Below, one piece after another: positions 6,643 through 24,913 of a DNA stretch of 64,000 bases; the stretch's first letter is position 1; each line of letters begins with the position of its first letter. Made by a program: the position numbers and the translations under genes. Location: NCBI GenBank assembly GCA_002700365.1, contig PADB01000009.1, forward strand, positions 222,387 through 286,386. The letters run 5' to 3'. The notes under the pieces were generated by a model. The model searched no databases, was not told the origin of the DNA, and was given only the letters and a program-made list of their open reading frames with translations. The DNA comes from Kordiimonas sp. Its GTDB lineage: Bacteria > Pseudomonadota > Alphaproteobacteria > Sphingomonadales > Emcibacteraceae.

Positions 6643-7070
6643 GTGAGTCTGAACGGCACTAAAAAAAGAAAGACGTGTGCTAAAGCATTTTCCGTAAAGA
6701 AACTTAAGAATGACCACAAGATGTGTGCTGTACTACAAATCTTCGATTTTTCGTTTTACACATCTTGGCAAGAGCGACGCGGCGCTCTCCCATTGCATCT
6801 CTCTGGCTGCTGTCGAAATTTGACTAGTAACATTATACCTGTTACTAACTGTGCAGAGTTTGGCAAAAGCCCTCTATTGAGATAATTTTCCGAGAAAATA
6901 TCTGCCTGCTAACGGCAATGTGTGAGAGCGCCCTTTATTCTCACCTCTTTCAGCAAAGTTTAACTTTAAGTTTTTGCGCCTATTCTGGCTTTTAATACGC
7001 CCCTTACGCTGTGTAGGAAGGCGTTGTGTTTGTGCATCACTATAAAATGCACCAAAAATAAGGACATACT
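6643..7070 (+). other. AT-rich gap after the pseH relic
   Basis: 428 bp, clearly richer in A and T than the flanking pse genes. A frame of 80 codons at 6643-6885 has no ribosome site and unusual composition, so I do not call it. Near the downstream end are an imperfect hairpin around 6997-7024 (ACGCC...GGCGT) and the inverted repeat at 7032-7052. The gap probably carries the promoter of the DUF1611-racemase pair and otherwise marks the junction of inserted DNA. Confidence 0.5.
7032..7052 (+). promoter_or_regulatory. Inverted repeat before the DUF1611 gene
   Basis: GTGCAT and ATGCAC, separated by 9 nt containing TATAAA, form a 6-bp inverted repeat. It ends 18 nt before the ATG at 7071 and just upstream of the AAGGA ribosome site. 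A TATAAA between operator-like arms would fit a repressor-controlled promoter, but no good -35 box is in register, so this is tentative. Confidence 0.3.
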
Positions 7071-8201
7071 ATGCCTAATGTCGATTTCCCCAAAAAACTT
7101 CTTCAAGACAGACCAACCCTGCACCCCACAGCTATTGTTTACTGCGAAAAAAACTTTGGTCGTATAGACGGGAAAACCGCTAATGGACTTGTTCGTTATT
7201 CCGAGCGATACAAAATCCTTTCCGTTATTGACAGCGACAAGGCTGGCCTGAATTCCGGTGAGGTTCTGGATGATATAATAAATGATATACCGATTTATCG
7301 CGACCTAGATGATGCTATTACACATGCTGGCGAAGTCCCTGATTATCTTATCTACGGTGTGGCCCCTGTAAGTGGGATGTTATCAAATAACGAACGTGCA
7401 CTTATGCTAAAGGCCATAAGCCTTGGAATAAATATTGTAAATGGTCTTCATGAGTTTCTAAATGATGATCCGGAGTTTATAGAGGCCAGCAAAGCAAATA
7501 ATGTTACGATCCTTGACATCCGAAAACCTCGTTGCAGAAAAGAATTGCGGGTGTTTACTGGCCGCATTAAAGAAGTTACCTGCCCACGCATTGCTGTGCT
7601 TGGGACGGATTGCGCCATTGGCAAACGTACGACGGCAACCATACTCACCAAAGCCCTTGAGGATTACGGTATAAATGCGGTGATGGTCGGCACTGGCCAA
7701 ACCGGATTAATTCAAGGTGCCCGCTATGGCGTTGCCCTTGATGCTATCGCATCTAATTTTTGTGCAGGAGAGGTAGAAGCAGAAGTTGTCCGAGCTTTTG
7801 AAAACGAAAATCCAGATATAATTATTGTTGAGGGGCAAAGCTCCCTCAGTCATCCGGCTTTTTCTAGCTCTGCGTTTCTTCTAAGAGGGAGCTGTCCAAA
7901 TGGCGTGGTGCTTCAACATGCACCCAAACGAGCGCATCGTTGTGATTTTGAGCACATGCCAATGCCAGAACCATCTGATGAGATTAAGCTTATAGAGACC
8001 TTTTCAGATACGAAAGTTATTGGCCTTACAATCAACCACGAATTCATGAGTGAAGATGAAATAGACGCCTGTATTACACAGTATGAAGAGGAGCTTGAAA
8101 TTCCTGCCACTGATGCCTTAACACGCTCTTCCGAACATCTTGTAGGGATGGTCTTATCCGCATTCCCTGGACTAAGGAAAAACCTACCTGTGGCAATATG
8201 A
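7071..8201 (+). CDS. DUF1611 (DgcN-like) P-loop family enzyme, candidate D-amino acid N-acetyltransferase
   Basis: 376 residues. The N-terminal part (about 1-160) looks Rossmann-like; the C-terminal part is the DUF1611 P-loop domain, with GTDCAIGKRTT at residues 178-188, GTGQTGLIQGARYGVALDA, and IIVEGQSSLSHPAF. A DUF1611 member, DgcN, has been described as a D-glutamate N-acetyltransferase in marine bacteria; by that analogy this protein may N-acylate a D-amino acid. The stop overlaps the next gene's ATG by 4 bp, so it is translationally coupled to a PLP racemase, which supports the D-amino acid idea. Base composition is more AT-rich than the pse genes, a sign of transfer. The substrate is inferred, not shown. 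Confidence 0.8.
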   Translation: MPNVDFPKKLLQDRPTLHPTAIVYCEKNFGRIDGKTANGLVRYSERYKILSVIDSDKAGLNSGEVLDDIINDIPIYRDLDDAITHAGEVPDYLIYGVAPVSGMLSNNERALMLKAISLGINIVNGLHEFLNDDPEFIEASKANNVTILDIRKPRCRKELRVFTGRIKEVTCPRIAVLGTDCAIGKRTTATILTKALEDYGINAVMVGTGQTGLIQGARYGVALDAIASNFCAGEVEAEVVRAFENENPDIIIVEGQSSLSHPAFSSSAFLLRGSCPNGVVLQHAPKRAHRCDFEHMPMPEPSDEIKLIETFSDTKVIGLTINHEFMSEDEIDACITQYEEELEIPATDALTRSSEHLVGMVLSAFPGLRKNLPVAI

Positions 8202-9259
8202 TAAATGCCCCACGGCTAGATATAAATCTAGATAAAATCCATGATAATGCGCGTATATTAGTCGAACGTTTGGCCGATAAAAATATTTCGGTTACTGGTG
8301 TTACGAAGGCTACACTTGGGTCATTAAAAATAGCAGAAGCATTGCTCCATGCAGGTGTCAGTACCCTCGGGGACTCTCGCATTGAAAATATTAAGTCGAT
8401 GCGCCATGCACACGATAAGGTTCAAATTTCACTTATTCGCTCCCCCATGCTCAGTCAAGCCAAACAAGTCGTTCACTATTCAGACGTCAGTCATAACACC
8501 GAGCTTGAAGTTATTGGCGCACTATCCGCAGAAGCACAGAAGCAAAAGCGCGTTCATGGCGTAATATTGATGGTCGAACTAGGTGATTTACGCGAAGGCA
8601 TTATGCCTTGTGATATGGAGAGCATGGTGCGTGAGACACTAAAATTCTCCAATATTGCATTTAAAGGCATCGGCACAAACTTAGCCTGTCGCAGCGGGGT
8701 TTCCCCTGATGCAACCAATATGAATGAGTTGTCAACTCTCGCAGATACGCTCGATACGACCTTTGGCTTTGTTATGGAAACCATTTCTGGTGGTAACTCT
8801 AGTAACCTTGGCTGGGCACTTAGTGACGTGGATACAGGGCGTATAAACAATCTTCGGTTAGGTGAAGCCATTCTTCTTGGCTGTGACCCGTTAAACCGAG
8901 AACCAATTGAGGGTTTGCACATTGATGCCATTACTCTAAGCGCTGAAGTGATAGAGGTAAAAATAAAACCATCGAAACCCCGGGGCGACATTGCAGAAAC
9001 AGCATTTGGAACTGTTAAAACAAGCAAGGATAACGGGCTTATTTCTCAGGCCTTATTAGCTGCTGGGGAACAAGATATAGACCCTAATGGCTTGCTACCA
9101 CCTGATTGTATGGAAATTATAGGCGCAAGTAGCGACCATCTTATTTTGAATGCGGGCAGTCAACAATTACCAATTGGCAGTGAGATAAAATTCATACCCA
9201 ACTACAGTGCCTTACTTCGCGCAATGACATCTCCCTTTGTTTCAAAAGTTATAGAATAG
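8198..9259 (+). CDS. PLP-dependent alanine/ornithine racemase-family protein
   Basis: 353 residues, fold type III (alanine racemase N-terminal barrel). The PLP lysine is Lys37 in SVTGVTKATLG. The pattern DSRIENIKSM, then LMVELGDLREGIMPCD, GIGTNLACRSG and ISGGNSSNLG matches the ornithine racemase (Orr)/YhfX branch rather than classical Alr. It should interconvert the L and D forms of an amino acid; the substrate cannot be read from sequence. The gene overlaps the DUF1611 gene by 4 bp, so the two probably act in sequence: racemise, then modify the D isomer. AT-rich like its partner. It ends about 70 bp before the tRNA-like repeat. Confidence 0.85.
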   Translation: MINAPRLDINLDKIHDNARILVERLADKNISVTGVTKATLGSLKIAEALLHAGVSTLGDSRIENIKSMRHAHDKVQISLIRSPMLSQAKQVVHYSDVSHNTELEVIGALSAEAQKQKRVHGVILMVELGDLREGIMPCDMESMVRETLKFSNIAFKGIGTNLACRSGVSPDATNMNELSTLADTLDTTFGFVMETISGGNSSNLGWALSDVDTGRINNLRLGEAILLGCDPLNREPIEGLHIDAITLSAEVIEVKIKPSKPRGDIAETAFGTVKTSKDNGLISQALLAAGEQDIDPNGLLPPDCMEIIGASSDHLILNAGSQQLPIGSEIKFIPNYSALLRAMTSPFVSKVIE

Positions 9260-10312: not shown

Positions 10313-10876
10313 ATGTCCTTAAATCACACATATATCGATTTCACCCTGCGCCCCCTGACCGGCGATGACCAGCAGATGGTGCTGGATTGGCGCAATCAGG
10401 AAAATGTCCGCAAATACATGTATAACGACCGGGTCATCACACCGGGCGAACATGCCCGCTGGATTGAGGCCACCTTGCAGGCTGACAATCGCGCCTATTT
10501 CATTTTCCAACATCAGGGCCGCCCCATCGGCCTGGTGGGCTTTTACGATATTGACCCGGTCCATCGCCGCGCCGACTGGGCCTTCTATCTGGGCGAAGGC
10601 GACGTGCGCAAGGGCAGTGGGGCCGTGATGGAATATCTGGCGCTCAACTATGCCTTTGACGAATTGTCCCTGCATAAGCTTTGTTGTGAAGTCTTCACAT
10701 TCAATGCCGGTGTTATAAAAATGCACAAGCGCTTCGGTTTTGTCGAAGAAGGCCATCGTGTCGGCCATTTCTTCAAGGACGGTGAATTTCAGGATATTGT
10801 CGAACTGGCCCTGTTTGCGGACCATTGGGCTACTGATCGCGACCAGCAATATAAAAACCTGTTTGCCCCCGCTTGA
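10313..10876 (+). CDS. pseH: UDP-4-amino-4,6-dideoxy-N-acetyl-beta-L-altrosamine N-acetyltransferase
   Basis: 187 residues, GNAT fold. It carries out the third step of CMP-pseudaminic acid synthesis, acetylating the 4-amino group of the PseC product with acetyl-CoA. The opening DFTLRPLTGDDQQMVLDW, NQENVRKYMYND, GLVGFYDIDPVHRRADW and the end segment HKLCCEVFTFNAGVIKMHK followed by RFGF are typical PseH. It stands apart from pseB-C-F-G-I, on the other strand, with its own start after an AT-rich gap shared with the HAD gene. Its first 48 codons are duplicated at 6481. With the five genes at 11785-16843 it completes the pathway. Confidence 0.92.
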   Translation: MSLNHTYIDFTLRPLTGDDQQMVLDWRNQENVRKYMYNDRVITPGEHARWIEATLQADNRAYFIFQHQGRPIGLVGFYDIDPVHRRADWAFYLGEGDVRKGSGAVMEYLALNYAFDELSLHKLCCEVFTFNAGVIKMHKRFGFVEEGHRVGHFFKDGEFQDIVELALFADHWATDRDQQYKNLFAPA

Positions 10877-11008
10877 ATTCCTGCATAACTTCCCATATTT
10901 ACCTTAACAAAAGTACGGGCCTCTCCCGCAAAAATACCTACTCTTACATATGTGATCCAGAATTTCTCACGCTGTGTAAAGTCAGGTCAATTCCGAAAGG
11001 TAAATACA

Positions 11009-11737
11009 ATGGAAATGCGAATGACACAGGTGCATGAAGTCATTGACCTTGCCCCCCATATGCGCAGAATAGTGTTAATGGGCGAAGAACTGTCAAGCTT
11101 CCCCACTGACATGGAAAGTGCTCATGTGAAAGTCATTGTGCCGCGGCCCGGGCAGGAAAAGCCAGAGCTTGCCCCTCATTCTGGCATGAAGAAATACATG
11201 CGTTCCTATACCATACGTCATTTTGACAAAAACTGGCATTTACTGACCCTGGATTTTGTCGTCAACCGCCATGAGGGTCTGTGCACCAATTGGGCCAAGA
11301 ACGCAAAGGTAGGTGATTTCCTCGGCATTGCAGGTCCCGGCCCCGTCAAACATAAAGACTTTAATGCCGATTGGCATCTGCTGCTGGGGGATATAACCGC
11401 CTTCCCCGCGATAGCCGCCACTCTGGAAAGGTTACCTCAAACCGCACGGGGAGCTATTTATATTCACGTGCCGTCCGCAGAAGACAAACAGGAACTGACG
11501 CTCCCTGACAATATGAATTTACACTGGCTCATCAATGACGATAATTCACAGAACATCCTGCTGGAATGCCTGAAAAATGCCGAGGTTCTTGAAGGTAAGC
11601 CTGCCGTCTTTATCGCCGCCGAAGGGGCCCATGTGCAAGCGATGCTAGGATACCTGAAGTCGGCCCCTTACTACGATAAAGAACTGACATATACGTCTGG
11701 CTATTGGAACGCCGCCCGCAAACCCCGCAAAAGCTAG
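11009..11737 (+). CDS. Siderophore-interacting-protein (SIP/ViuB)-like FAD-binding reductase
   Basis: About 242 residues from the ATG at 11009, chosen because AAAGG lies upstream and the family normally starts near here; a GTG 19 codons earlier is possible. Features are the FAD-binding RSYTIR motif, then VNRHEGLCTNWAKNAKVGD and GIAGPGP, and a C-terminal SIP domain (LLLGDITAFPAIAATLERLP) that binds NAD(P)H. Such cytosolic flavoproteins reduce ferric siderophores to release iron. No siderophore receptor or synthesis gene is adjacent; the gene sits between pseH and the convergent pse operon, and the reason is not clear. Confidence 0.85.
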   Translation: MEMRMTQVHEVIDLAPHMRRIVLMGEELSSFPTDMESAHVKVIVPRPGQEKPELAPHSGMKKYMRSYTIRHFDKNWHLLTLDFVVNRHEGLCTNWAKNAKVGDFLGIAGPGPVKHKDFNADWHLLLGDITAFPAIAATLERLPQTARGAIYIHVPSAEDKQELTLPDNMNLHWLINDDNSQNILLECLKNAEVLEGKPAVFIAAEGAHVQAMLGYLKSAPYYDKELTYTSGYWNAARKPRKS

Positions 11738-11784
11738 TTCTTCATAATGTCCGGCATAACCACCACCCCGTCTTGTCGGGCGGC

Positions 11785-12837
11785 CTATTCCACCATCTCG
11801 AAACTCAGCGCCGTGCCTTTCGCCGCATCCACCACCATTTTCCGCCCCAATAGTGCCTCATAATGCCTGGGGGCCAAGCCGTAACCCGGACGAATGCTGC
11901 GCATATTCTCAGACGTCAGCACATCACCCTTTTTTACATCCTCAACAATATAAAGCGACCGGCGGAATTTGATATTGCCCCGCTCTTTTTCGCTGCGTTC
12001 ATAGTTCACCCGGCCCAAGGCCTGCCAGGCTGTTTTACTGTCAGTCACCAGCTCCTCTAATTCTGAAGGCTCCAGAGAAAAACTGTCATCGGGACCGCCC
12101 GCTGAACGGTCCAATGTAAAATGCTTTTCAATCAGGCACGCGCCCAAGGCCACAGAGGTCACCGCCGTCACATTATCAATGGTGTGGTCCGACAACCCGA
12201 CCAATACATCATGTTTTTGGGCGATGTCCTGTAACATACGCAGATTGTAATCCTCTGGTTCTGCGGGATAGGCACTGACGCAATGCAGTATCACCAGATC
12301 CTTGCATCCCCCATCGCGGGCGGCGGCGATGACTTCGGCAATTTCCTCTTCACTGGTCATGCCGGTGGAAATAATCATCGGCTTACCCGTTCCGGCCGTA
12401 TAGCGCACCAATGGCAGATCCACTGCCTCAAATGATGCAATTTTATAGGCCGGGGCGTTCAGGTCTTCCAGCATATCCACGGCACTAAAATCAAAGGGCG
12501 AACTGAAGATGGTCAGGTCCAGTGCCCGCGCCTTATCAAACAGCGGTTTGTGCCAGTCCCACGGCATATGCGCCCATTCATACAGCTTATACAGGCTTTT
12601 TCCGTCCCACAGACCGCCTTCAATACGAAACTCCGGCGCGTCAGACGGGATGGTAATCGTATCCGCCGTATAGGATTGCAGCTTCACGGCATCGACCCCC
12701 GCCTTTTTCGCCGCCAGTAGAATGTCTACCGCACGGTTAAAATCGCCATTATGGTTGGCCGACAGCTCCGCAATGATATAGGGCGCATGGTCCGCACCAA
12801 TAGCCCGGCCGTTAATCGATATTTGTTGCTGTCCCAT
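11785..12837 (-). CDS. pseI: Pseudaminic acid synthase
   Basis: 350 residues from MGQQQISINGRAIG; start chosen for the AAGGGAGG ribosome site 4-5 nt upstream. NeuB family: condenses 2,4-diacetamido-2,4,6-trideoxy-L-altrose with phosphoenolpyruvate to give pseudaminic acid. Visible are AELSANHNGDF, DAVKLQSYTADT, TIFSSPFDFSAVDML, LHCVSAYPA and GLSDHT in the TIM barrel. The C-terminal antifreeze-like SAF domain (GNIKFRRSLYIVEDVKKGD, NMRSIRPGYGL) covers the active site. Last gene of the pseB-C-F-G-I operon, 10 bp after pseG. SLYIVEDVKKG and the NHNGD motif favour PseI over sialic or legionaminic acid synthases, as do the neighbours. Confidence 0.95.
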   Translation of the reverse strand: MGQQQISINGRAIGADHAPYIIAELSANHNGDFNRAVDILLAAKKAGVDAVKLQSYTADTITIPSDAPEFRIEGGLWDGKSLYKLYEWAHMPWDWHKPLFDKARALDLTIFSSPFDFSAVDMLEDLNAPAYKIASFEAVDLPLVRYTAGTGKPMIISTGMTSEEEIAEVIAAARDGGCKDLVILHCVSAYPAEPEDYNLRMLQDIAQKHDVLVGLSDHTIDNVTAVTSVALGACLIEKHFTLDRSAGGPDDSFSLEPSELEELVTDSKTAWQALGRVNYERSEKERGNIKFRRSLYIVEDVKKGDVLTSENMRSIRPGYGLAPRHYEALLGRKMVVDAAKGTALSFEMVE

Positions 12838-12847
12838 ATTGCCTCCC

Positions 12848-13990
12848 TTACGAAGTCCCGGCAATTTGCGCCATGACTATTTCCGTCATTTTGACCGCGC
12901 CATCCCCTTTACAAAGGCTGGCAGAAACCGCCGTCATTTTCCGCAATGCCGTCATGTCATTCAACAGCAGCATAATATACTCATGCGCAAGATTTTCCAT
13001 GGCAAGCTCGCTAACAGGCCCCGCACTGACCACCGCCCCTGCACTTTCCAGTAATGCGCAAGCTGCCTTTTGATTCTCTGCCAGCACCAGATTTATTGCC
13101 GGCAGGCCCAGGGCACATCGCTCCCACGATGTACTGCCCGCCGCACCGATACATAAATCGGCCGCGGACATAAGCTCTGCCATATTATCCACACCAACAC
13201 ACAAATCTATCGCCATCGATGATTGTTGGCAGTACGCCTCCACATGCTGCAAATGCGGCGATTTTGCCCCCATGATAACCGTCACTTTCACATCCGCCGT
13301 CAGCGAACATAGCTCCAAAGCCTCTAGCGTCAATCCGGTGGCATTGTGAATATCCATTCCGCCCATGGTAACCAGAATATGCCCAACCTGTTGCAGCCCT
13401 TCCCGGCGCGCCAGACTTTTTGCCCGCCACTCGGCAAACTCAGGGCGCAGCAAGGCATAATCGGCACCGATACAAAGCTGGCAGTCTTCAGGAACAAGCC
13501 CCGCATATAAATGCGGGTCTTTTAGGGCTGTCTGGTCCAGTAGAATGTCGCAGGCATGTGCCCGGTCATTCAGGTCATCAATGACCATCACCACATAGCC
13601 CTGATCCCGGAACGGCACCTCCCAGCGGGCATCAATACCGTAATGGTCAACCACAATCGCTTTAATGGGGCCATATCTTGTGATTTTCTCCAGACAATCG
13701 GCGGTCTCCGCTTGATCGCGTTGCCACCCCGCCACCAGCCAGTGCTGATGTCCCAAATCGTCCTCATCTGCTGCTGTTTCCGCGATGTCTTGCATAGAGA
13801 CAGCCGGCAATATATGCGTGTCATATCCCTTATCTGCTATGATGTCAGAAATATGTCCCGGCAAATCACGACAGATAAAATGGCATATCGCCCCCCGCTC
13901 ACGCAATGCTGCCGCCAGCGTCAGGCAGCGCATCACATGGCCTGTCCCCATATCAATGCTGCTATCCACCCGGAAAACTATAGTGCTCAC
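12848..13990 (-). CDS. pseG: UDP-2,4-diacetamido-2,4,6-trideoxy-beta-L-altropyranose hydrolase
   Basis: 380 residues, GT-B-like fold. It hydrolyses the UDP-sugar made by PseH, releasing UDP and the free altrose derivative used by PseI. The opening FRVDSSIDMGTGHVMRCLTL has the glycine-rich GTGHVMR loop and catalytic-histidine region of PseG. Further on are VVDHYGIDARWE, VTMGGMDIHN, and IGAAGSTSWERCALGLPAIN, the UDP-binding segment. It starts with GTG overlapping the pseF stop by 4 bp (GTGA). Slightly longer than some PseG proteins, but without a fused acetyltransferase domain, consistent with a separate pseH. Confidence 0.94.
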   Translation of the reverse strand: MSTIVFRVDSSIDMGTGHVMRCLTLAAALRERGAICHFICRDLPGHISDIIADKGYDTHILPAVSMQDIAETAADEDDLGHQHWLVAGWQRDQAETADCLEKITRYGPIKAIVVDHYGIDARWEVPFRDQGYVVMVIDDLNDRAHACDILLDQTALKDPHLYAGLVPEDCQLCIGADYALLRPEFAEWRAKSLARREGLQQVGHILVTMGGMDIHNATGLTLEALELCSLTADVKVTVIMGAKSPHLQHVEAYCQQSSMAIDLCVGVDNMAELMSAADLCIGAAGSTSWERCALGLPAINLVLAENQKAACALLESAGAVVSAGPVSELAMENLAHEYIMLLLNDMTALRKMTAVSASLCKGDGAVKMTEIVMAQIAGTS

Positions 13991-14684
13991 GATAACATGC
14001 CCTGTTTGCGCAGAACCTCGTACATAACTTCCGCGCGTTGCCAGTCTTCGGGCGTATCCACATCCTGCACAAAATGGCGGGGCAAGATCACCGGGATAGA
14101 ATGCGGCGCAAACAGCTCCTGCTCATCACAAAAGGCTTTCGCTGTTCCCCAATAAAATTGCCCGGCATCGTGATACGCCTCTTCCAGTTCTTGTGATCGG
14201 GTCTGGCGATGCTCAGGATATAAGGCTTCAACACGCCCTTGTGCATTAACCCGCACGGCCCGTTGAACAGGAAATGGAAAGCTGGTCACAGAAAAAGCAT
14301 ATGATGCTTGTTGTGACTCTAATAAGGCTAAGCCCTCTGCCAAATATTTTGACTGCGCAAACGGGGCCGTCGCATAAAGGCAGCAAACATATTCCGGACT
14401 CTCCCCTTGTGCCTGCATCTGCTCTATGGCATGGCGTATCACGGGCACGGTTCCCGTATAATCATCTGACAGGTCTACCGGGCGCATAAACGGCACCTCT
14501 GCGCCACTCTCCCGTGCTACCTGCGCGATTTTCTCATCGTCTGTTGAGACCACCACCCGGTCGATACCTGTCGTCCGTAAAGCCGCATCAATACTGTACT
14601 TGATCATGGGCTGGCCGCAAAAGTCGCGGATATTCTTGCCCGGAATACGCTTACTGCCACCGCGTGCAGGAATAATGGCGATAT

Positions 14685-14688
<4 letters not shown>
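13987..14688 (-). CDS. pseF: Pseudaminic acid cytidylyltransferase
   Basis: 233 residues, CMP-sugar synthetase fold. It activates pseudaminic acid with CTP to CMP-pseudaminic acid, the donor for glycosyltransferases. The nucleotide loop IIPARGGSKRIPGKNI opens the protein; VVVSTDDEKIAQVARESGAE and MRPVDLSDDYTGTVPVIRHA follow; near the end the metal-binding QDVDTPEDW is present. The ATG overlaps the pseC stop by 4 bp and its own stop overlaps pseG. NeuA and PtmB are related, but order and neighbours make PseF the natural choice. Confidence 0.94.
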
Positions 14689-16864
<2,176 letters not shown>

Positions 16865-22214: not shown

Positions 22215-23957
22215 TCACAATGAAACGACTTGCCGCATAATCAGATGAACGAAAAGCAGGTTTAGGACCGTCTGCGCCAAACTGTTATCTTCTGGCCGCC
22301 ACTTTCCATGCTTCCCACGAATAATATCGCGCAGGTCGGGCAACTTGTATTTTAAAGCAAAGTCACTTTCAAAGAATTCCGCATCCGCCAGTAATTCTTC
22401 CAGCGGCCCTTTCAGCCCCCCATTTAAGAACAGATAATTCGTTCTACAAACCGCCTTGTCCCGATAGATAAGGTCGAAATCAAGGTCATCCTCATAGGCC
22501 TTGCGCAACAGGTACTTATTGACCTTAATTTTCTTAGACGAATGCGATGCCCGGCCATATGTATGGCGCGTTGCTATTGAAAACGGTATCTGTGCTGAAA
22601 ATCTGGATAAGTCACGATCATAAAACGGCATTTCGCAGTTGATACCGCTAGTTCTGGACACGCCAACCATATATTCAATGTCGAATAAATACTGCCGACG
22701 CCAGTTTTTCTGCACCAGATGGTTATAAACCCCCCGCTGCTCATGGCAGAATGACGGCATCAGACTCTCGGCAATCTCGTCCAGTTCCTGCTCATATTCT
22801 TGAACGTCATGCAGAAAGTCAAAATCATGGGCATGGAAAGACCTTTTCGCCAGGAAACGACCCGGCCGGTCCAGTTCAGCCGCCAATCCCCACAATCTTT
22901 GACGCTTATTTGCCGCGCCGCTTTTTTTCTGCCCACGCACATAAGCTGCAATCGGAGAAAATAAATGATGAAATGGCCGTCCCTTACTAAAAAAGGACCA
23001 ATATATAAGATCTATACGTGACAATGCTGGCGTATGCAGACGCGTATCCTGCCCCGCAAAAACTGTGTTAACATCGCCAGATTTTGTCGCCTTTTGTAGC
23101 AATTCACTAATAAAGACAGACCCCAGATACGGTGAACTTGAACGCGCAAGATACTCCCGAAGGTTTATTTCCTTATTGGGGTCAACAATGTGGTGCACAA
23201 ACTCCATACCCAGGCTGCCACAAACCTTCTGGGCATCCCGCCACTCTGTTTCTTCTGCCCCTTCAATGGAAAAATGCAGACCTTTGACATCCTGAAGCCT
23301 CAGATCCTTTACCAAGGCAATGGACATCACCTGGGAATCCAATCCACCGGAAACGAAAACTGCATTACCACTTTCTGCAATACGCCGCTCATGCGCCTTT
23401 GTGATTTCATCACGCAATTGGGACGCAAGCATCTCTTCTGACGACTTTATAACGGCGTTTGGTAATTCGAAGTTATCCTGAACCGTCTCTGACTTGTTAT
23501 CTGCGGTGATGCGAACAACAGCCCCATTAGGTACAGACTTGACGTTCTCAAAATAGGTGGACGGGTTCTTGGGATATTCAAAATACAGGAACTGAAAACA
23601 GCTCCGCTCATCTACCCCTTTAGCATAGGCCGATAACTCAAACAGATTATCAGACAGGTAAACAACCCCATCCGATATGACATAATATAACGGCCATGTC
23701 CCTGAATACTCACGACCGATATACAGTTCCCCTGTATCTTTATTCAGGCATAGGGCAACGAAAGACGCACACTCATCCCCAACAAACTTCTTAAAATCTG
23801 ATATGGTCGCGACTGCCTTGAACCGGTCCATCAGATTTTTATTCTGCCCATGCAGGATAAAGCAATGACCCTTTTCTTCCCTCTGTACCAGCTGCCCTGT
23901 AACCGGTTCATTCAGGAAGTGGCATTGCCCGCCTGTAATATCGACAGATAACAGCAT
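22215..23957 (-). CDS. Asparagine synthase-like protein without the glutaminase cysteine
   Basis: 580 residues from MLLSVDITGG; this ATG is chosen because it overlaps the stop of the upstream gene as TAATG. It has an N-terminal Ntn-like domain and a C-terminal synthetase domain with the ATP pyrophosphatase loop VSGGLDSQVMSIAL (about residues 202-215). In true asparagine synthase B the residue after the initiator Met is the nucleophilic Cys; here it is Leu, so glutamine hydrolysis by that route is absent. Homologues in O-antigen loci (WbpS type) are proposed to amidate uronic acids. With the window's UDP-glucuronate genes, an amidated sugar or an amino acid-sugar amide is plausible. Nitrogen might come from ammonia. 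Confidence 0.8.
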   Translation of the reverse strand: MLLSVDITGGQCHFLNEPVTGQLVQREEKGHCFILHGQNKNLMDRFKAVATISDFKKFVGDECASFVALCLNKDTGELYIGREYSGTWPLYYVISDGVVYLSDNLFELSAYAKGVDERSCFQFLYFEYPKNPSTYFENVKSVPNGAVVRITADNKSETVQDNFELPNAVIKSSEEMLASQLRDEITKAHERRIAESGNAVFVSGGLDSQVMSIALVKDLRLQDVKGLHFSIEGAEETEWRDAQKVCGSLGMEFVHHIVDPNKEINLREYLARSSSPYLGSVFISELLQKATKSGDVNTVFAGQDTRLHTPALSRIDLIYWSFFSKGRPFHHLFSPIAAYVRGQKKSGAANKRQRLWGLAAELDRPGRFLAKRSFHAHDFDFLHDVQEYEQELDEIAESLMPSFCHEQRGVYNHLVQKNWRRQYLFDIEYMVGVSRTSGINCEMPFYDRDLSRFSAQIPFSIATRHTYGRASHSSKKIKVNKYLLRKAYEDDLDFDLIYRDKAVCRTNYLFLNGGLKGPLEELLADAEFFESDFALKYKLPDLRDIIRGKHGKWRPEDNSLAQTVLNLLFVHLIMRQVVSL

Positions 23958-24913
23958 TATCGGCGTTCTCTCGACAGCGCCAATACCAGAACCATCATAC
24001 AAATAAAGACGAAAGAACCGATTACTGATAAGCCAACAATGGTCCCTCGGCGGGGCTTTATTTTCTTCTCAGCCGCAATTGCGGGGTCAACCGTCTCAAA
24101 GAAGTACTCGTCACGAACATTGGCCAGTACTTCAACCTTCATATTCTGCTCAATCAACTGGGACAACGCCATCCGTACTTCCGGATTGCGGGTTTCTGCC
24201 AGTTTCTCTTCCAGATAAGAAATACTGCGCTCAGCCTCTCCCACGTCACGGGCTTTTAAAAGTTGATTGATTTCCGCAACCATCAAACTGGCCCACTTCT
24301 GCGCATGAACCGGGGAGATAAAATCAACAGTCACGTCAACCATGGAGGTCTTCTTGTCCTGATTGACTGACAGAATTTCCATGAACTCTTCGTAAGCTTC
24401 CTGACGCGACGGCTTAGGCGTTTTGGGGAAATCCGCTTCTCTTACCCATTCTTTCTTCTCTGCGTCATAAACATCGCCATCCAGAACAAGTTCTTTTTTA
24501 TTCCAATCCCACCCTTTACCGGCGAATAAAGGAACAAGAACGTCATGTTTCTCAATAAAATTCCCCACAAACTCCCGTGACCGCATTACTTCCATCGCAT
24601 AGGTCACTGGCGTCACAGCCCCGTCCCCTATACTGACGCCTGCCAATTGGGCAAAGCCGCCCAACTCACCGCCAAGTTTAGATGCCAGCCCTTTCGAACT
24701 TTCTTCGGAAGGCGCGAGGCGCACATGAGAACGGTAAATATTGGGCATCAGCAAAGTCACAATAATTGTCCCGATCGCCACCAAAGAGACAAAAGCTGTA
24801 ATAGTCAACTTTTTATGCCACAGGATGCTAAACATCTCACCCAACGAGATCACGTAATCAGAGTCAGACACCCTTGTTCGCAACTCAGTCATTTCTTTTT
24901 CAACCTCATTCAT
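23957..24913 (-). CDS. Wzz-type polysaccharide chain-length regulator
   Basis: About 318 residues from MNEVEKEMTELR; upstream Met codons give longer but implausible N-termini. Two membrane helices bracket a long periplasmic region: one at about residues 34-55 followed by YRSHVRLAPSEE, and one near the C-terminus after a Pro-rich KKIKPRRG. The helix pair with coiled periplasmic part (VGEAERSISYLEEKL) is the Wzz/PCP fold. It controls how long the Wzy polymer grows. No cytoplasmic tyrosine-kinase domain is attached, so it is a PCP-1-like protein. First gene of the minus-strand polymer operon; divergent from the FKBP gene with a 283-bp gap. Confidence 0.82.
   Translation of the reverse strand: MNEVEKEMTELRTRVSDSDYVISLGEMFSILWHKKLTITAFVSLVAIGTIIVTLLMPNIYRSHVRLAPSEESSKGLASKLGGELGGFAQLAGVSIGDGAVTPVTYAMEVMRSREFVGNFIEKHDVLVPLFAGKGWDWNKKELVLDGDVYDAEKKEWVREADFPKTPKPSRQEAYEEFMEILSVNQDKKTSMVDVTVDFISPVHAQKWASLMVAEINQLLKARDVGEAERSISYLEEKLAETRNPEVRMALSQLIEQNMKVEVLANVRDEYFFETVDPAIAAEKKIKPRRGTIVGLSVIGSFVFICMMVLVLALSRERR

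Follow-up and report, generated by a model that had tools for sequence, protein, structure and literature searches.

Among described DUF1611 proteins, DgcN is regarded as a D-glutamate N-acetyltransferase; in the sources consulted here, this function rests on the title of PDB entry 7xrj, the NCBIfam model NF041892 and secondary mentions. Another described system is the pair AblA and AblB, which make N-epsilon-acetyl-beta-lysine, an osmolyte, and on which growth in high salt depends (PMC1224877, PMC12776343). In addition, pseudaminic acid derivatives of Campylobacter carry N-acetylglutamine, and the genes for this decoration were not known in 2010 (PMC3068675).

We analyzed a 64,000-nucleotide stretch of a Kordiimonas sp. 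contig (PADB01000009.1; the whole stretch is hereafter called the window), in which a DUF1611 gene is followed by a gene for an Orr-like racemase (Table 1). An earlier note on this DNA had proposed that the two products form an N-acyl-D-amino acid module within a pseudaminic acid locus. The idea of a coupled racemase and acyltransferase was strengthened by strict pairing of the genes, their overlap, homology to 7xrj and a racemase swap in one relative, whereas the pseudaminic acid setting was not supported.

Table 1. Features of the window, numbered from its first nucleotide
Feature	Position	Strand	Remarks
Upstream region of the pair	6945-7070	+	promoter-like matches at chance frequency
DUF1611 protein gene	7071-8201	+	376 aa; ORF and Pfam
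ATGA stop-start overlap	8198-8201	+	likely translational coupling
Orr-like fold-type-III PLP racemase gene	8198-9259	+	353 aa; ORF and Pfam/NCBIfam
Genes for PseH, PseI, PseG, PseF, PseC and PseB	10313-16843		all over NCBIfam cut-offs
AsnB-type amidotransferase-like ORF	22215-24002	-	by eye

The DUF1611 protein and its racemase partner

The first protein matched both Pfam families PF17396 (E 3.7e-25; 88.5 bits, gathering threshold 22.6) and PF07755 (E 1.4e-70; 237 bits, threshold 25). It consists of a Rossmann-like N-terminal domain and a BioD/SIMIBI-like P-loop domain, with the Walker A motif GTDCAIGKRTT at residues 178-188. Structure models had mean pLDDT values of 88 and 92, and the fold of the DUF1611 protein matched 2obn, 2g0t and DgcN (7xrj) and, more weakly, dethiobiotin synthetase, MeaB, ATP-citrate lyase and MurD. 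We propose that this protein is an N-acyltransferase of a D-amino acid. A different reading is that it is a BioD-like ATP-dependent ligase or kinase, which uses the D-amino acid in some other way. The P-loop with an intact Walker A lysine, the VEGQ motif, the weaker fold matches and the many clade-specific positions described below would all suit such an enzyme. However, DgcN, which its PDB title calls an N-acetyltransferase and which has the same P-loop, is among the best full-length relatives, and we consider a ligase or kinase very unlikely.

Identity to DgcN-type proteins was 24-36%, and the score against the DgcN equivalog model NF041892 (170 bits) was under its cut-off of 480. The two types have core residues in common (K35, T36, G178-T-D, G184-K185, D224, E254-G-Q, H283, R287, N322 and D348), whereas ~38 positions that are constant in the module clade are different or gapped in the DgcN type. 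Position 169 is Arg in all sampled DgcN-type proteins and Val in the module clade, and Glu26, Glu234 and Glu324 are particular to the latter. If these residues line the pocket, they could mean a basic substrate instead of glutamate, although this is a guess. In a quick version of the phylogenetic tree, the module proteins formed a single clade (SH-aLRT 99), distinct from those of the DgcN type (39 sequences from related genomes) and on a long branch relative to DgcN; nested in this clade was L103, a plasmid sequence that has a long branch and no racemase. Judged from the distant link to DgcN and the clade-specific positions, the type of reaction could differ as well.

The second protein matched PF01168 (E 2.6e-21), and its best NCBIfam match was ornithine racemase Orr (NF040742), which was full-length (E 6e-105) but, at 351 bits, under the cut-off of 480. 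The PF01168 barrel and the PLP lysine place it among the fold-type-III PLP racemases, and its fold resembles alanine racemases (Foldseek TM 0.7-0.8). Lys37 is the PLP lysine and aligns with that of the alanine racemase 4y2w. Both K37 and Y336 were invariant across 28-32 orthologs; Y336 may be the second-base tyrosine of the C-terminal domain, although no PF00842 match was obtained. Thus, the family names given in the earlier note, DUF1611 and Orr-like racemase, agree with Pfam, NCBIfam and fold matches, whereas filing the proteins as DgcN or Orr does not, as both are under the curated cut-offs. Fold-type-III PLP racemases work on free amino acids, that is, they need a free amine, and racemization must therefore precede N-acylation.

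Conservation and spread of the gene pair

The ATG of the racemase gene shares 4 bp with the TGA of the DUF1611 gene, which makes translational coupling of the two likely. The earlier note had pointed out this overlap, and it was confirmed in the window and extended to relatives, where 36 of 38 junctions (37/39 with the window included) have a 1-8 bp overlap between the racemase start and the DUF1611 stop. This count covers several phyla and ORF starts that were called mechanically in the relatives, and it omits one locus with a displaced racemase (L041). As the overlap is kept at nearly all junctions in relatives from several phyla, it is not due to chance.

A scan of genome contigs detected nine close DUF1611 relatives (59-72% identity) in Verrucomicrobiota, Nitrospinota and Gamma-, Alpha- and Deltaproteobacteria, and in all nine a racemase homolog comes next. 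Among 385 evenly sampled alphaproteobacterial genomes (other groups were sampled less), both genes occurred in the same 15 genomes and neither in any other at the thresholds used, with E-values calculated per genome. Further loci were found in other proteobacterial and Verrucomicrobiota samples and on plasmids of Vibrio and roseobacters, so that a total of 41 loci, including the window, were compared. Gene order was fixed, and each complete locus with an Orr-like partner had the two genes side by side in the same orientation. Among the carriers with names, most are marine or saline. The two genes form a self-contained module that has spread horizontally among unrelated, mostly marine bacteria.

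One genome of the window's own family (G006) has no Orr-like gene at all. Its DUF1611 gene is followed, in the partner's place, by an Alr/Bsr-type racemase gene, one of eight PF01168 genes in this genome, among which other alanine racemase genes are present. This swap is a replacement that preserves the racemase step. The replacement racemase appears, by eye, to bear a signal peptide, and this would fit a periplasmic source of the D-amino acid better than a cytoplasmic one, which counts against the scheme proposed below.

A phage origin of the module was also considered and rejected: a scan of viral contigs gave no relative, and the only phage genes found were distant DUF1611 genes in large phages of Erwinia and Dickeya (records H31-H50, ~263-267 kb; 24-29% identity, annotated as hypothetical). 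A role in anti-phage defense was dismissed after PADLOC gave no match. A search of papers accessible without subscription found none that connects DUF1611 proteins to a racemase.

Neighboring genes and possible functions

The Pse proteins encoded next to the pair (Table 1) are genuine, and the distance from the pair is ~1 kb to pseH and ~2.5 kb to the PseI-B operon. Together with the N-acetylglutamine derivatives that exist in Campylobacter (PMC3068675), this position is what speaks for the suggestion that the pair supplies an N-acetyl-D-amino acid decorating pseudaminic acid or another surface glycan. When other DUF1611-clade loci were surveyed for such a linkage, none of 40 had pse genes within the stretch read (upper 95% bound 7%). 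The survey also covered 25 carrier genomes. PseI was over the cut-off in only five of these, including the window's, which leaves 20 without a match at that level, and in the other four positive genomes PseI and the pair were on different contigs. In the window itself, the genes flanking the pair on both sides are on the opposite, minus strand, so the pair is a separate transcription unit and not a member of the pse operon; its GC content is 0.44, compared with 0.50-0.55 in the pse core and 0.49 in the window. Scans for promoters and terminators gave matches only at chance level, and no stress-type promoter was identified upstream of the pair. Across loci, no ligase or glycosyltransferase recurred as a partner of the pair. 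The proposed decoration of pseudaminic acid thus failed in this comparison; glycan decoration by the pair appears extremely improbable, and its position beside the pse genes looks accidental.

The window also contains a surface polysaccharide locus, in which the AsnB-like ORF adjoins Wzz-, Wzy- and flippase-like ORFs; its product may add acetamidino or amide groups to the glycan.

A different type of neighbor was observed in other module loci. Of the 41 module loci, 10 had GroESL or HflKC genes within ~9 kb of the pair, compared with none of 39 DgcN-type control loci (Fisher p 0.001; 0.002 when one genus was entered only once and 0.004 when plasmid-collection records were excluded). The controls in this comparison come from a single order of Alphaproteobacteria, so that taxon and plasmid effects are only partly controlled for. 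GroEL/GroES genes were near the pair in L036, L060, L067, L069, L070 and L102, and HflK/HflC genes in L094, L100, L101 and L151. The occurrence of GroEL alone exceeded that expected from three copies per 4 Mb (p ~2e-5). About three quarters of the module loci had no chaperonin or HflKC gene nearby. In L151, hflC, a gene for a secreted repeat protein, the DUF1611 gene and the racemase gene are consecutive on one strand; a Vibrio parahaemolyticus plasmid has NhaA between the pair and hflKC, and on a V. europaeus plasmid GroESL is found with two Hsp20 genes near the pair. A DnaK-like match in L094, which probably represents the HscA of an isc operon, was left out of the stress count. Ectoine synthase was over the cut-off in only 2/36 carrier genomes, an observation without a matched control to which we give no weight.

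On the basis of these data, we propose the following scheme. The racemase would interconvert the L- and D-forms of an amino acid, and the DUF1611 protein would then N-acylate the D-form, thereby pulling the reversible racemization forward. The inert N-acyl-D-amino acid would stay in the cell. Acetyl-CoA as acyl donor, a substrate that is perhaps a basic amino acid such as ornithine or lysine, the sequence of the two steps and the role in stress are our inferences. Racemization followed by acylation would drain the L-form, which implies a biosynthetic or sequestering logic and would be unneeded for catabolism. The product would most likely serve as a solute that protects against salt or protein-folding stress, with the same logic as in AblA and AblB; we judge this use likeliest because the carriers are mostly marine and stress genes are among the neighbors. 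We regard it as an even call whether the racemase indeed makes a D-amino acid that the DUF1611 protein N-acylates to a stress-protective solute. More tentatively, the two genes may encode a mobile route to an N-acyl-D-amino acid that belongs to a new class of compatible solutes or protectants, located among the stress genes of marine bacteria, a possibility to which we lean less than to its opposite.

The earlier note had named a catabolic role as the alternative. In such a role, which may include detoxification, D-amino acids that are toxic or come from the environment would be acetylated by the DUF1611 protein, and the racemase would convert some of them back to the L-form; the pair would then be an alternative to DgcN-DgcA. 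It is consistent with homology to DgcN, whose pathway is catabolic, with the apparently secreted partner racemase of G006 and with the mobility of the pair, which a D-amino acid sink would suit. However, a PLP racemase can no longer act once the amine is acetylated, and acetylation before its step would be unneeded. In addition, no transporter, catabolic gene, deacylase or regulator recurred at a fixed place beside the pair (recurring ABC transporter and response-regulator genes, members of large generic families at varied distances, were left uncounted), and no third gene was conserved across all loci. A homolog of DgcA, the catabolic partner of DgcN, was present in 30/39 DgcN-type control loci, mostly directly downstream, and in 0/41 module loci. 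Catabolism thus found no support in the gene neighborhoods and seems unlikely.

Several other genes were located next to the pair in particular lineages. Directly upstream of it in many alphaproteobacterial loci are genes for a 117-aa membrane protein with an FSWGGWxT motif and a secreted protein of ~255 aa with GWEC..GF repeats (L099, 7704-8865; L101, 7630-8827; L151, 1227-2021, secreted protein; also L067-L070 and L095-L097). These two proteins gave no confident Pfam or NCBIfam family and recur in some lineages only. A GspS-beta-like pilotin lipoprotein (T2SSS_2) is encoded just after the racemase on three Vibrio plasmids (L098, L100 and L102). In a locus from Verrucomicrobiota (L147, 12042-13802), a YcaO-like gene, recognized by eye, starts right after the racemase gene, and a peptidase S51 (cyanophycinase/PepE-like) gene is beside the pair in two distant organisms (L039, 5196-5942; L057, 7189-7935).

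It might be argued from HflKC, the secreted repeat protein, the small membrane protein and the GspS-like lipoprotein, which adjoin the pair in several loci, that a free or acylated D-amino acid edits peptidoglycan or serves as a signal when envelope quality control such as that by HflKC is needed. However, these neighbors vary by lineage and are absent from most loci, and no peptidoglycan gene recurs, which makes an envelope role distinctly improbable.

A compact, mobile route of two enzymes that would make an N-acyl-D-amino acid and lock it up, and that is preserved in several phyla, points to a metabolite for which nobody has yet searched; metabolomics by ordinary methods could detect it in a carrier strain. 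D-amino acids in sea water are a large and poorly explained pool.

Comparison with known systems

The structurally characterized proteins closest to the module DUF1611 protein are 2obn of Anabaena and 2g0t of Thermotoga (31-32% identity, TM ~0.75-0.8 by query length), which are structures without assigned function. DgcN has the same two-domain fold, Walker A motif and core residues and is likewise coupled with an enzyme that changes the handedness of an amino acid. However, the partner of DgcN is the enolase-type DgcA and that of the module protein is a PLP racemase, and the module protein is further set apart by its separate, long-branch clade, its score (170 versus 480 bits), Val169 and Glu26, Glu234 and Glu324. 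Identity of the module with the DgcN-DgcA system was rejected, given the separate clade and the lack of DgcA near all module loci, and with a different clade and a different partner the module DUF1611 proteins should not be named DgcN. The racemase is similar to Orr in its full-length match to NF040742 and its conserved PLP lysine, but differs in score (351 bits versus 480), and no ornithine degradation genes were recognized nearby. AblA-AblB is alike in plan only, as a two-gene operon of an amino acid isomerase and an N-acetyltransferase (PMC1224877), whereas its enzymes, a lysine aminomutase and another type of acetyltransferase, are unrelated to those of the module as proteins and in their chemistry.
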